From Sistotremastrum niveocremeum HHB9708 (lineage: Eukaryota > Basidiomycota > Agaricomycetes > Sistotremastrales > Sistotremastraceae), in assembly GCA_001630475.1 (NCBI GenBank), contig KV419401.1, forward strand, positions 186,001-250,000: a stretch of 64,000 nucleotides of DNA. Direction: 5' to 3'. The notes beneath the pieces are model-generated. The model saw only the letters and a program-made list of their open reading frames with translations. It searched no databases and was not told where the DNA came from. This document shows, one piece after another, positions 30,288-64,000 of the stretch. The position numbers were made by a program, and so were the translations under genes. Positions within the stretch are counted from its first letter, which is position 1. The number at the start of each line of letters is the position of its first letter.

Positions 30288-31148
30288 ATGCCTCAGTGTG
30301 AGTAACGAAGCCATACTCGAATAGGCTTGTGAGCGCTGATACATATGCTCCGTAGTGATTAGACTCGCGATGTTGCTGCAGGCATTCGTGTTTCTCTTGC
30401 TTGCGGCTGTGGGGTATCCGCCGATAGATCGCTTTCCTCTGACGAAGACCGTTTTCCCCAACGCATCAAGTCTACCATCTGTTGATGGAGTCGGCCCAGT
30501 GACCGAGCTTGGAGTGAGGAGACATCTGTACCTGACTGCACGACTCACCGACGCATTGCGTACAGGTTGGCATGTGGTATGTTTATTCCCTTCAAGCGCG
30601 ATCCATCTCTAATACACCTTGTTCAGGGGGCAGTGTATCATAGATACCGCTGGACATAGGAGTTGCCGAGGAGAGTTGTGTACAACGTTGGTGCGTTTCT
30701 ATGCTTATCTCTTGGAATGCACCGACGAGCAAGCTTGATCAGACCTCATTTCTTCTTCGAATGAAACCGTTAGCGTCTGTGTCAATCAGAGGGGCGAGGT
30801 CGAAGCTCGTCCTATTGCCCTCCTCTCCCTATTAGTTGGCATCATTGCCAGCCTCGCGTCTGACGATCGCGAGATCAACAGCTGTTCTCTTGGCATGTCT
30901 GTCGCTGGCTCGTTCGCCGTCTTCATGACCTTCTTGTTCGATGTGATGTTTTTCTCCTCCATTGGCAACGAAATGCATGCACTGCATGACTTTTCAAAAA
31001 CCAGCTTGGGAGGCGGTGAGTTATTCTGCCGGTTTCTTACAACCTTCGTTGATCGGACACTCGTGCAGCTTTTTGGCTGAACTTCGCGGCGATGCTGTTG
31101 CTACTAATAGATGGCATATATTCTATCAGGCTTGCGATCGCGCGATAG
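30288..31148 (+). CDS. SUR7/PalI-like four-helix membrane protein (lone copy)
   Basis: Multi-exon gene. Start at 30288 (MPQ), donor at 30298, then LIRLAMLLQAFVFLLLAAVG (helix 1) and a luminal part ending VTEL. An 11-nt microexon (30566-30576) joins to MWGQCIIDTAGHRSC, matching the WGYC-Cys pattern of the downstream family. Next come RPIALLSLLVGIIASLAS (helix 2), MSVAGSFAVFMTFLFDVMFF (helix 3), SIGNEMHALHDFSKTSLGGG and a last exon AFWLNFAAMLLLLIDGIYS (helix 4), stop at 31148. SUR7/PalI proteins act at the plasma membrane or eisosomes and in pH sensing; the role here is unknown. It is about 28 kb from the four-gene array of relatives and on the other strand. Confidence 0.65.
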
Positions 31149-59244: not shown

Positions 59245-60215
59245 TCATGAAGCATTCCGGATTAAAGCTTCTTGGTGTGCATCGGAACGAGCATCTGATG
59301 GTTCATCCCACCAATGGTAGCATCTTGGGCCGACGACGAGGATGGTGGTCGTCATGATCAATTGTAAAACTGCCACAAAAGACAGCCAAAATACTACATT
59401 TCATCAGTCACGGCATTCTTCAGTTGATGTCAATATCAATATGACGAACCTCCACCAGTCTTTGTCGTGACTGGAACGCCCAATCCGCCGAGTCTGTGCT
59501 TTACCAGGGCAAAGAAGATGATTTCTGTTAGGAATGCCCCGAATGCCATCACAAGACCGACACCGGATGCGACAATAACTTTCCATGCTCCTGTAGTCTT
59601 GCGGCGCAATGGGAAGAGGATGTTGAAGATAAATGCAACCAGAACAAAGTATGCTGCAATAATTTCCAAGGCGACAATCGCGTTTGTCCATTCGGAGGGT
59701 ATGTTCACAGTTGTTCCATCTGGAGACTCGAGAGCTGGGCCGAATTAGCACAAGATGAAAACAATGTGAGGACGGCGTACTGAAATTGTAGCCTGCCATT
59801 GTCTGGCAAGTTCTGTGTCCAAATGCACTGGATGTACAATAACCCCTTAAGCCAATTTTAGTCAAGCCGAAACGGGCATATTAGGTATCGGATTACCATA
59901 AGCCCAACTACAGAAGAATGTTAAGCCCTGTTCAGAATAACAGGTATATATCGGGGCGTACTCTGAGTTCAGTAATAGTCCCATCGGGACCACTTGGTAA
60001 TGAGGAGGAGTTGTCGAAAGTAGCCTTAGCGGCATTCAGGCCAACGATTGGTGGACTGCTAATGCATGACAGGATCAAAACTACGAGCGCAGTAAACGAC
60101 CAGCAGATCCTGCAGATATCTGAACGACATATAGCATCAACCTGCACTGACTGTATTCTTGAAGCTTACAGAAAGAAGTCTCTGGTCGCATATTCAGTTT
60201 ACGAGGGATCTGCAT
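59245..60215 (-). CDS. SUR7/PalI-like membrane protein, array member 1
   Basis: Start at 60215 (MQIPRKLNMRPETSF), then helix 1 (WSFTALVVLILSCISSPPIV), ending TITELR. The 11-nt microexon 59897-59907 gives LGL and part of Trp, joined to GYCTSSAFGHRTCQ and MAGYNF. Then IPSEWTNAIVALEIIAAYFV (helix 2), VGLVMAFGAFLTEIIFFALV (helix 3), GLGVPVTTKTGG and a last exon FWLSFVAVLQLIMTTTILVV (helix 4). The paired cysteines between helices 1 and 2 are typical of SUR7/PalI proteins. Last intron acceptor was chosen because it restores FWL as in the relatives. Confidence 0.7.
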
Positions 60216-60655
60216 GTTGCCAAGCGGGTGGAAGTTCGAAGGTGGCAGCACATCCGCAGCGGTATATATGCGCTATATATATCGGACGGGCTTGTCAACG
60301 AGAGAGATTGCGCAGCACTCCAGCTCAGGGTCAATGGTCTCGTCAATGTCAACAATGGACGCCAGCTGAGGTCATGCTCCACATTCGGACGCGTTCCTTG
60401 ACGCGTTCAAACAGATGTTCCAGGAAAAGAGTAGCAGCTTCGCCGTGACTGCGCCGCGGCAGTGAGTCGTTGTCGAACCAGATCCGTTCAGGAAGCCGTG
60501 CAAAAAACGGATTAGATCAACAGAAAATTCCAGCGCAGTCGTGAAACAAGGTAGAGATGGAGATTAAGAAACAAATACAAACAACGGAAATGGAATGCAT
60601 AGATTTGCAAGCGAGTGTACCAGCCGACTCGACACGGATCCAAGACCCTTCGCGC
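60216..60655. other. Intergenic within the SUR7-like array
   Basis: About 440 bp. Contains the upstream region of array member 1. No supported gene. Confidence 0.45.
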
Positions 60656-61717
60656 TCACTTTCGGAAATGCTGCCATACTGGCTTTTCCGACTCCATCAC
60701 TAGACCTTTCTCGAAGTCCGCCTCTGAAGTCGTTCTGGAAGTGGTCATCTGGAGATCTTCTACTACCGCAGGCTGAGGATTAGCTTTGCGCATTGCAGCA
60801 GCACGGGCGGAGAGAAGCAAGAATGGAGCGAGGACCAGGAGCTCGATCACAGCGTCGAAGGTCAGCCAGAGACCTGTAATGAAAAGGCAATGAGCGCTAT
60901 GAAGGCAGAAGAATACAATCGAACGGACCTCCGCCAGTGTCAGTCGAGGGTTGACCAGCTAGTTTTCCCAGTTCTTTCTTGACGAGTGCAAAGAATACGA
61001 TGTCGTATATGAAGGCCACAAAGGTCATAAGGACGGCCAGGGTCGCTGTGACCAAGCCTAAATATGTACTGCCACGGCGTGTTGGTATGTTCACGATGAA
61101 CGCCACGAAATTGATGGCTGCGGCGATAGGTGTAAGGCCCAGAGCGTTGATCCATTCCGTTGGGATTGTAGCATGCGAACCGCTCGGCGAGGTCAAAGCT
61201 GAAGGACATACTGTCAGTCGAATTAAAACCGAGGCGATGCTATTTCTTACCAAAGGAGTATCCGATCTCGTTGTGGCAGCTGGTCTTGTTCTGTGTGTCA
61301 ACGATGCAGAAGCCCCTGGAACAAAAGCTTTCAGCACTTTGAAGACTCATGTTTGAGACAGTCATACCATGCACCAAGCTGGTTAATCACATTAGCACGT
61401 CGCACATCAGAAAATCGATCCGGCAACTCACATCCACTTCCTTTATCAACACAGGTGTTTGTGGTAGATAATTGGGCGTGTAGGTGGGCAAATTCGACGT
61501 GTCCTTGAACGTCGTCTTCGCCATGATCAGTCCGCTCATAGCAGGAGCCCCAATGCTCGAGATAGTCAGAAGCACAAGTGTACAGAATAGCAACGCCGTT
61601 CGATGAATGTCTATCCCCGGCAACAAAATTAGCCTCACTTCAATTTGAAGCCGTCCAAGACTCACAAAGCTTGGTCGCCGGGGACGGATTCCACTTCTTG
61701 CACTTAGACAGAGCCAT
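60656..61717 (-). CDS. SUR7/PalI-like membrane protein, array member 2
   Basis: Starts at 61717 (MALSKCKKWNPSPATKLY), helix 1 IHRTALLFCTLVLLTISSIG, then SGLIMAKTTF and VLIKEVD. Microexon 61368-61378 (LGA plus part of Trp) joins GFCIVDTQNKTSC and HNEIGYSF. IPTEWINALGLTPIAAAINF and VTATLAVLMTFVAFIYDIVF are helices 2 and 3; FALVKKELGKLAG leads to LWLTFDAVIELLVLAPFLLL (helix 4) and a charged tail ending WQHFRK. All introns match array members 1 and 3. Membrane protein of unknown role, likely at the cell surface. Confidence 0.72.
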
Positions 61718-62087
61718 GGTGAAGGTTGCAGCTTGGCTGGCTCGTCCGCAGTGCGTGTCTCATATATGGAGCTCCAGAAAGGGCTACGCAGTATCAGGGA
61801 GCCGACTATTCACTAGTGCATTGACGGTTGTGTAGCCAGGGTCAGGGGCAAACTACGCGGGCGGGGTTACCGTTCTGATACCACGACGCACGTGGTAAGT
61901 GAGTCTAAACAGTGCACGCTTACTTGTACAAAAATATATTTAGAAGATACCAGTAAGACTAGTAGTACAAAGATATTCAGTAGTCAGACAGACTGTAGCA
62001 CACTACGAAAAAAACAGAGGAAAATAGATCAAAGAAATATCTAATCCGGACTAAAATGAGGAGATCTCGAGATATTCGGAAAAATAT
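61718..62087. other. Intergenic within the SUR7-like array
   Basis: About 370 bp with an AT-rich patch near 61920-61950. No supported gene. Confidence 0.45.
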
Positions 62088-63068
62088 CTAGGATCGGCGG
62101 AAACGCTGCCAGAAGCCACGTCTGCTCGAGGACATGGGATAGCTCTGGTAGTTACCAGCATTGGCACGGTTTCGACGATGGCCGAAAATAACGGTACAAC
62201 CTCCAAGCAGGAGGAGGATGAAAGAGGCGAAGGTGAGCCAGAATCCTGTGTCATGACGACCATTAGCAACGTGCGCTTGCTAATCAAGTATTGAGGTAAC
62301 ACACCTGGAGCAGTGATGGTCTTAGCTTGAATCTGCAGATTGTCCATTTCGTGCTTGACGAATGCGAACAGAGCGATATCAATAGCGAACGCTATTAGAG
62401 TGAGCAATGCAGCCAAGAAGGACAGGATTGAAGCGACAATCTCCACGGTCAGATGTGAGGAGAGACTGAATAGGAAAGCCAGGAGAGTAACTGCTGCAGC
62501 GATGGGAGTGACGATAAGACCTCTGGTCCAATTGGCCGAAATATTGATGGTGTCGCCATTCCCGGGAGATTTGATAGCTACGAGATTGGATATGCATCGG
62601 TACCAGAGAGCAGAGAAAATGAAGAAAATACGCACAGAATGAATAGGCTCTATCACGGTGGCATGTCTTATCCCCAGCTTGGTTTATCGTACAGTATCCC
62701 CTGAAAGTCCACCCAAGTCAGCGATGAGTGGTCCCGAAGCTTCTAAGAGCTCACCATATTCCAAACTAATTATGCCCCAATTTTCTATGAGTTATCGAGC
62801 TACACGGCCAGGGACTGAGGAACACGCACCCTGACTGAATCCATTATCCCACCGTCAGGGGCCTGAGGCAGATGAGCCTGGTCATTGAAGTGCGTTCGAG
62901 CAGTATCGAGCCCGTCAAGGAATGGTACGCTGATGCTCGTCAGGACGAGCAAGACGAGGGCAGAGAACAGCAAAAAGACTCCTGGGATGCCTGAAATTCC
63001 GTTCAGCCAACAACACACAATTAGACAGCATGCCACTTCAAATTGAACTTACAGAGTGAACGTGCCAT
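62088..63068 (-). CDS. SUR7/PalI-like membrane protein, array member 3
   Basis: Starts at 63068 (MARSLC), then IPGVFLLFSALVLLVLTSIS (helix 1), LDGLDTARTHF and MDSVR. Microexon 62755-62765 (FGI plus part of Trp) joins GYCTINQAGDKTCHRDRAYS. Then NISANWTRGLIVTPIAAAVT (helix 2), IVASILSFLAALLTLIAFAI (helix 3), VKHEMDNLQIQAKTI and FWLTFASFILLLLGGCTVIF (helix 4), and a basic tail RRGFWQRFRRS. It is the clearest family member in the window and was used as the guide for the others. Confidence 0.78.
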
Positions 63069-63409: not shown

Positions 63410-64000
63410 TTAGTACACTTGGACAGCTCGAGTATGTATCACCTCCTGATGGTAGACTAGACTCGCTGGCCTCGCTGCTACTGGCACTACATATGTATTT
63501 TGTCTCCGTGAATTTGCAATCAGTTCAAGGGTGCCGATAACCAAGAAAACGCTCGCGGCCAATGTAAGCCAGGACCCTGCATGATCTGGCGTTCATTTCT
63601 TGGACAGAAGTCAGACTAAGGACGTACGCACCTATGCCGAGCGTCGTCTTCGTGAGGTCCGTAATTTTGTCTATCCCGTGTTGTACGTGCGAGAAAAAAA
63701 GTATATCGATGACCAGAGCGACGATTGCCATGATCATGGCCAGGATGGATGTTAACGCGGCGATGACTTGTGCGAAGCGTTTGATAGATATTCGGGCGAA
63801 TATAATGGAGAGCAACGCCACGACGGTGAATGCTGCGGCTACCACGTGCATGATGAGTGGACCCGTGCGCGAAGTCGGGATAGTGAAGCTTGAAGTTTTG
63901 TGGTTCGCCGTAGCATTGATCACTGAATAGTTTCAACATAGGGCACTTCGCATGAATCGCAGTACAGACCAAGACTGTACGGTCGCTTATCGAAACAAGT
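63410..64000 (-). CDS. SUR7/PalI-like membrane protein, array member 4 (5' end outside window)
   Basis: The window edge cuts the gene within the cysteine exon (TCFDKRPYSL, matching TCHRDRAYSF of member 3). After a short intron: NATANHKTSSFTIPTSRTGP, helix 2 IMHVVAAAFTVVALLSIIFA, helix 3 AALTSILAMIMAIVALVIDI, FFSHVQHGIDKITDLTKTTL and, after another intron, SWLTLAASVFLVIGTLELIA (helix 4). The stop is at 63410. Helix 1 and the microexon lie beyond the edge. Confidence 0.7.

Follow-up and report, generated by a model that had tools for sequence, protein, structure and literature searches.

Several very small coding exons have been described from fungi. In Fusarium, the gene CYP621A contains an exon of 1 nucleotide (nt) within a protein motif, and SRA reads of two species back it up (PMC12940212). 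In the white-rot basidiomycete Phanerochaete chrysosporium, exons of 2-10 residues are found in almost one-third of the P450 genes, and 41 P450 genes have exons of 29 bp or less, the shortest measuring 6 bp (PMC1184071), while exons down to two nucleotides have been reported from Phlebia radiata (PMC6540522). Microexons of plants are frequently absent from annotations (PMC8831610), and long reads recognised very short exons less well in Ganoderma lingzhi, possibly due to misalignment (PMC11590231). Here we analysed a stretch of 64,000 nt of the basidiomycete Sistotremastrum niveocremeum HHB9708 (the window; positions 186001-250000 of contig KV419401.1, termed C8 below) and five genes (A-E) in and at the end of it. 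The proteins of four of them (B-E) match the SUR7/PalI family (PF06687). Sur7-family proteins have been described as tetraspanners of the yeast membrane compartment of Can1 (MCC)/eisosome that are similar to claudins (PMC10702824, PMC3285718). Our analysis indicates that these five diverged, neighbouring SUR7/PalI-like genes very probably share a constitutive 11-nt coding microexon located between short introns.

The candidate exon and its splice sites

In all five genes exon 3 is 11 nt long, with AG directly before and GT directly after it, a phase-0 intron (intron 2) upstream and a phase-2 intron (intron 3) downstream (Table 1); each gene thus holds an internal exon of no more than 15 nt with splice sites on both sides. 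In the motif G-x-W-G-x-C, the exon accounts for x-G-x and for two bases of the Trp codon. The coordinates given for four such exons in the original prediction were exact, and the fixed length and phase it had proposed apply to the fifth copy as well, which escaped it because this copy is located 83 bases outside the window end. The introns on either side follow the GT..AG rule in genes A-D and measure 52-64 nt (intron 2) and 50-54 nt (intron 3), with a range of 48-64 nt over all five genes, and the distance between exons 2 and 4 is 113-129 nt. A loose branch pattern, which has no chance control behind it, matched at least one site 10-30 nt before the end of every flanking intron. Each gene has six coding exons, and the five short introns between them occupy corresponding positions in all genes (intron 4 of gene A being ambiguous). 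Intron phases 1, 0, 2, 1, 1 are common to genes B, C, D and E, whose exon 4 measures 65 nt; for gene A, the preferred model gives 68 nt. Exon position, frame, shared gene structure and absence from uninterrupted paralogues are established by the sequence.

In four of the five genes (B, C, D and E), the complete codon preceding that of Trp has A as its third base, compared to 19% overall (binomial 0.006), a value from which we make no claim, as it comes from five related genes and a site chosen post hoc. An A in this position could help U1 pairing.

Table 1. Exons, introns, coding spans and paralogous motif sites. Positions refer to the window unless a contig or locus is named.
Feature	Position	Strand	Description
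11-nt exon 3, gene A	30566..30576	+	GTTGGCATGTG, V-G-M-W; spliced VGMWGQC
11-nt exon 3, gene B	59897..59907	-	TTGGGCTTATG, L-G-L-W; spliced LGLWGYC
11-nt exon 3, gene C	61368..61378	-	CTTGGTGCATG, L-G-A-W; spliced LGAWGFC
11-nt exon 3, gene D	62755..62765	-	TTTGGAATATG, F-G-I-W; spliced FGIWGYC
11-nt exon 3, gene E	64093-64083 in window numbering (C8:250093-250083)	-	TTCGGAGTATG, FGVWGYC
Intron 2, gene A	30514..30565	+	52 nt, GTGAGG..CAG, phase 0
Intron 3, gene A	30577..30626	+	50 nt, GTATGT..CAG, phase 2, CTAAT branch-like site
Intron 2, gene B	59908..59961	-	54 nt, GTACGC..TAG, phase 0
Intron 3, gene B	59846..59896	-	51 nt, GTAATC..AAG, phase 2
Intron 2, gene C	61379..61431	-	53 nt, GTGAGT..CAG, phase 0, CTAAT branch-like site
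Intron 3, gene C	61316..61367	-	52 nt, GTATGA..CAG, phase 2
Intron 2, gene D	62766..62829	-	64 nt, GTGCGT..TAG, phase 0
Intron 3, gene D	62701..62754	-	54 nt, GTGAGC..CAG, phase 2, CTGAC branch-like site
Coding span, gene A	30288..31148	+	six exons, intron 4 30695-30742 or 30691-30789; no Pfam SUR7 match
Coding span, gene B	59245..60215	-	237 aa, SUR7/PalI E 7.2e-16
Coding span, gene C	60656..61717	-	264 aa, SUR7/PalI E 3.1e-11
Coding span, gene D	62088..63068	-	227 aa, SUR7/PalI E 1.1e-21
Coding span, gene E	63410..64360 (window part 63410..64000)	-	231 aa in total, SUR7/PalI E 7e-16; crosses window end
Paralogue C1			motif site FGVWGYC, uninterrupted frame
Paralogue C14:532.8k			motif site FGVLGYC, uninterrupted frame
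Paralogue C56			motif site FGCWGYT, uninterrupted frame
Paralogue C14:59k			motif site IYAWGFYSHC (different spacing), uninterrupted frame; no full gene model
Candidate 6-nt microexon GTCTCC	L006 = C56:123750-123745	-	between introns of 49 nt and 56 nt

Splicing solutions and chance controls

We enumerated all GT-AG solutions (minimum intron length 40 nt) from the last 36 nt of exon 2 to the first 37 nt of exon 4, retained those with the correct frame and no stop, and scored the products against the same segment of three splice-free paralogues. The retained solutions numbered 52 for gene A, 17 for B, 58 for C, 27 for D and 12 for E, and the best-scoring one contained the identical 11-nt exon in every gene. 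With the intron-2 donor of our gene models, this exon was part of the first-ranked solution in B and D, the second-ranked in E and the third-ranked in C and A (in A tied with the second). One might suppose that there is no exon here and that the whole stretch between exons 2 and 4 is removed as one intron or as a stwintron, in which one intron is nested in another and interrupts its splice signal, a type known in fungi (PMC6616335). Solutions with one intron do occur (12 in A, 3 in B, 24 in C, 8 in D and 2 in E), but the best of them scored only 11.5-23.5 compared to 24.5-47 for the 11-nt model and fell below it in all five genes. The enumeration contained for none of the genes a solution that left exons 2 and 4 without any splicing between them. 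Moreover, full removal breaks the frame in five of five genes and deletes x-G-x-W, at a site for which the uninterrupted paralogues have coding sequence. The stwintron class, with no coding piece between, was rejected, since frame and motif require the 11 nt. We therefore consider a single intron or stwintron extremely improbable.

The AG and GT might also have come to lie at these places by chance, in genes that are pseudogenes or make use of other sites. For each gene we generated 5000 shuffled sequences with dinucleotides kept and exon ends fixed, accepting plain GT..AG introns of 40-75 nt on both sides. Chance alone is not without effect at this level: an in-frame mini-exon of any kind was obtained in 28% (A), 13% (B), 46% (C), 54% (D) and 50% (E) of the shuffles, one of 11 nt in 2-10%, and W-G-x-C alone in 2.6% (A), 1.9% (B), 3.7% (C), 8.5% (D) and 5.0% (E). 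The full in-frame G-x-W-G-x-C, however, was reached in only 0.12% (A), 0.08% (B), 0.06% (C), 0.6% (D) and 0.06% (E), yet it is present in all five genes; the genes are kin and the five shuffle results are therefore not independent. With the same relaxed filter the unshuffled sequences gave the 11-nt solution only, plus an 8-nt solution without Trp in gene A. Under a stricter consensus (4000 shuffles for each gene), the donor GTAGAG of gene E led to zero unshuffled solutions for this gene, and the relaxed filter was applied equally to real and shuffled sequence. It is the full G-x-W-G-x-C motif that carries the evidence, and not the presence of an AG..GT pair alone. As the remaining exons are also open in all five models, and the spliced proteins of B, C, D and E exceed the Pfam cut-off, coincidence appears to be a barely credible explanation. 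Gene models, solution scoring and shuffles all support the placement of the exon in W-G-x-C that had been claimed before.

Consequences of skipping and a probable mechanism

Because 11 is not a multiple of three, skipping of the exon shifts the frame in five of five genes, in agreement with the original prediction; an early stop, however, results in only four of them. The skipped products end after residue 66 (A), 82 (C), 69 (D) and 69 (E), with 257-317 nt between the stop and the last exon junction (the value for A being taken from the model with the 99-nt intron 4). In gene B, by contrast, no stop is met before residue 214 after skipping (146 shifted codons), compared to the normal protein of 237 residues. 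An equally long open skipped frame occurred in 77 of 5000 synonymous resamplings of gene B and is thus uncommon, but not extraordinary. If intron 2, intron 3 or both are retained, translation of each of the five genes stops within residues 58-92. With a frame shift in every gene and Pfam matches at E 0.1 for none of the five exon-skipped products, the exon is required for the reading frame or the motif.

A length that is not a multiple of three, together with early stops in skipped A, C, D and E, would also suit a switch-like microexon with regulated inclusion, in which the frame-shifting skip turns the gene off (poison by omission), and a switch-like microexon is known from Trichoderma Xlr2 (PMC11121469). 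The long open skipped frame of gene B does not fit such a switch, nothing in the sequence analysis points to regulated skipping, and by analogy with nematodes the very short flanking introns would favour plain intron definition. Regulated inclusion therefore seems quite improbable to us.

For a constitutive 11-nt exon, the following mechanism is the most likely. The spliceosome would pair the sites across each short intron (intron definition), and the two flanking introns would be removed one after another, such that the 11-nt exon would never be recognised as a unit. In ascomycete fungi nearly all introns are small, which is regarded as a sign of cross-intron pairing (PMC6616335). In nematodes, the two microexons found to be independent of the U1 factor PRP-40 are flanked by introns that are unusually short (down to 49 nt), and an upstream intron of 58 nt released another microexon from PRP-40, a result interpreted by its authors as intron definition (PMC8378409). 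From the analogy with these nematode microexons we infer that intron definition probably operates here as well. Selection on the protein motif would hold exon length and phase constant, as a gene that lost the exon would be shifted out of frame.

Several points speak against a constitutive 11-nt exon in five SUR7/PalI-like genes. The exonic bases at its donor are TG, as dictated by the Trp codon, instead of the usual AG, and two of the splice sites are non-consensus, namely the donor GTAGAG in gene E and the acceptor AAG in gene B. Protein score alone leaves the exact 5′ splice site of intron 2 unsettled in A, C and E, where higher-scoring variants use alternative donors that lengthen or shorten exon 2; the predicted boundary between exon 2 and intron 2 rests on splice-site consensus and shared phase and not on protein score. 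For gene A, no match to SUR7 reached E 0.1, and its only matches were weak, sub-cut-off ones to YbjM and DUF6346. Finally, splicing of the exon is deduced from sequence alone, and the observation comes from a single genome with five related genes, which do not represent five independent cases.

Protein family and signature motif

The spliced proteins of genes B, C, D and E scored 58.9, 43.8, 77.9 and 58.9 bits against SUR7/PalI, all above the curated Pfam cut-off of 29.6 bits, and their SUR7 matches (E 3e-11 to 1e-21) span the signature motif. The family assignment made in the original prediction accordingly stands for B, C and D, and extends to E, but not for gene A. We group gene A with B-E on account of the predicted gene structure that it has in common with them and its identity of 26-31% (30% to B).

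Claudins carry the signature G-L-W-x-x-C-x(8-10)-C. In all five cluster genes G-x-W-G-x-C is followed by nine residues and a further Cys (G-x-W-G-x-C-x9-C), and genes A-E all show the spacing G-x-W-x-x-C-x(8-10)-C of the claudin-like signature. By analogy with claudins, the motif would be placed in the first extracellular loop. The cluster genes gave zero matches at E 0.1 to the claudin-family profiles PF00822 and PF13903, and gene D showed a weak sub-cut-off match (E 0.0058) to TMEM37, a calcium-channel-gamma-like family. In a structure-profile search, whose query included a row for the paralogue on contig C1 that was 69 nt short, the motif site was found opposite G-L-W-R-V-C in glutamate-receptor chains with weak E of 0.013-0.015; the name of the second-ranked chain describes it as a chimera that includes the calcium-channel gamma-5 subunit. 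For the C1 paralogue, weak claudin matches were rejected as a product of the model omitting 69 nt, and they are gone with the uninterrupted frame.

Uninterrupted paralogues and origin of the exon

A family search and two protein searches, covering 34.7 Mb in 111 contigs of the organism's own genome, identified at least nine SUR7-like genes, five of them on C8 and four elsewhere. The microexon, which had been described as conserved, occurs in five of five genes of the C8 cluster but in none of the four others found, these searches giving a lower bound. It therefore marks one diverged local cluster and not SUR7-like genes generally. The four other genes read through the motif site in an uninterrupted frame (Table 1), and C14:532.8k, which has neither intron 2 nor intron 3, has the phase-1 intron 4 position in common with the cluster. 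For the C1 paralogue a model omitting 69 nt was dropped, as no GT-AG intron bounds the omitted piece and the SUR7 score was 78.9 bits compared to 83.1 bits for the uninterrupted frame. This paralogue has an extended stretch after the first loop cysteine (L001 about 1686-1752), in which a 42-nt GT-AG stretch (L001 1686-1727) could be either an intron without in-frame stops or plain coding sequence. Weak matches on contigs C30 (E 0.018) and C28 (E 0.24) were discarded by eye as unrelated frames. With gene D as sole query, collections of viral and prokaryotic genomes gave 6 and 73 peptide-pattern matches, respectively, none of which encoded a relative.

Pairwise identities between cluster genes are 26-39%. 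In a tree of eight proteins (C14:59k was left out) without an outgroup, a branch with 100/99 support, present in 100% of the 200 bootstrap trees, sets the five cluster genes apart from the others; the row of gene A is long and its placement unsure. Grouping and support were the same with either version of the C1 row. Because the exon is cluster-wide, with none in the four other genes found, and the cluster forms one branch, it probably predates the duplications of the C8 cluster. Its two introns may have been gained in the cluster or lost elsewhere. An origin of the flanking introns as introner-type mobile copies was rejected, with scores of 9-12 between introns 2 and 3 of the same gene; among all intron pairs the best score was 24, which equals the 95% point of shuffles.

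A wider scenario would comprise an old 11-nt exon fixed in the SUR7/PalI lineage of mushroom-forming fungi, a splice-dependent check of the claudin-type signature and repeated gain of microexons in the family, with the 11-nt exon at the signature and a separate 6-nt one in the first membrane helix of a paralogue. Taken jointly, we regard these elements as unlikely. If true, whole families of fungal membrane proteins would be systematically missed or truncated in annotations.

Gene models and further features of the locus

For intron 4 of gene A, a form of 99 nt (30691-30789) has phase 0 and a good donor, and a form of 48 nt (30695-30742) has phase 1 and the donor GTTTCT and adds 17 residues that can be aligned with the other genes. 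We prefer the 48-nt phase-1 form as the more plausible model. Genes B-E appear as a head-to-tail array of SUR7-like genes within 5 kb (59245 to 64360, minus strand) with 27-39% identity, i.e. a diverged tandem, and gene A lies on the opposite strand at a distance of 28 kb. On C8, about 1.6-1.9 kb to the left of the window, the own-genome protein search gave two weak matches (E 0.019 and 0.78).

The first intron of the C56 paralogue (111 nt) can be read as an intron of 49 nt, a 6-nt exon GTCTCC and an intron of 56 nt. With these 6 nt the first membrane helix shows G-x18-P, as in C14:532.8k, C1 and gene D, and without them the spacing is 16; it is 20 in gene E, and A, B and C fall outside the pattern. 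Inclusion of the 6 nt raises the Pfam SUR7 score from 69.5 to 72.4 bits, and skipping would preserve the frame. This is suggestive of, but does not prove, a 6-nt microexon separate from the 11-nt exon.

Comparison with known microexon systems

The C8 cluster offers a checkable microexon of fixed length and phase in a signature motif, with diverged copies and uninterrupted paralogues within one genome, and thereby a small set of natural cases in which to test the splicing of exons too small for exon definition in intron-dense fungi. It is also a warning that gene models of the SUR7/PalI-like kind may be wrong in such fungi. No microexon in SUR7/PalI genes was named in the titles and beginnings of abstracts searched, a partly noisy set that does not show absence from print. 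Two papers on Cryptococcus (PMC3990503, PMC8022950) speak of microexons only as a setting of the read mapper.

The exon described here resembles that of Fusarium CYP621A in being fungal, located in a conserved protein motif and obligatory for the frame, and in having been deduced from the frame and an intronless relative; the intronic stretch of CYP621A is likewise short, with 139 nt in total. The accounts differ in that the latter exon consists of 1 nt, belongs to a P450 gene of an ascomycete, was followed over 20 Fusarium orthologues and is supported by reads (PMC12940212). Trichoderma Xlr2 is a further fungal microexon whose usage determines the protein made, but its inclusion is glucose-dependent and was tested, whereas we see no sign of regulation here (PMC11121469). 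The microexon clusters of plants are similarly grouped by size and phase and lie inside protein motifs; they differ by RNA sequencing support in ten species and by flanking introns that tend to be detained (PMC8831610).

Tiny coding exons between small introns are shared with the white-rot basidiomycetes P. chrysosporium and P. radiata, although these concern other gene families and predicted models (PMC1184071, PMC6540522). Very small exons are thus already known in fungi, white-rot basidiomycetes included, and the SUR7-like case is an additional example. Unlike the C8 cluster, the passages on P. chrysosporium and P. radiata report no single length and phase throughout a family (PMC1184071, PMC6540522). 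It is the occurrence of one length and phase in five diverged copies that is notable and distinguishes the cluster described here.

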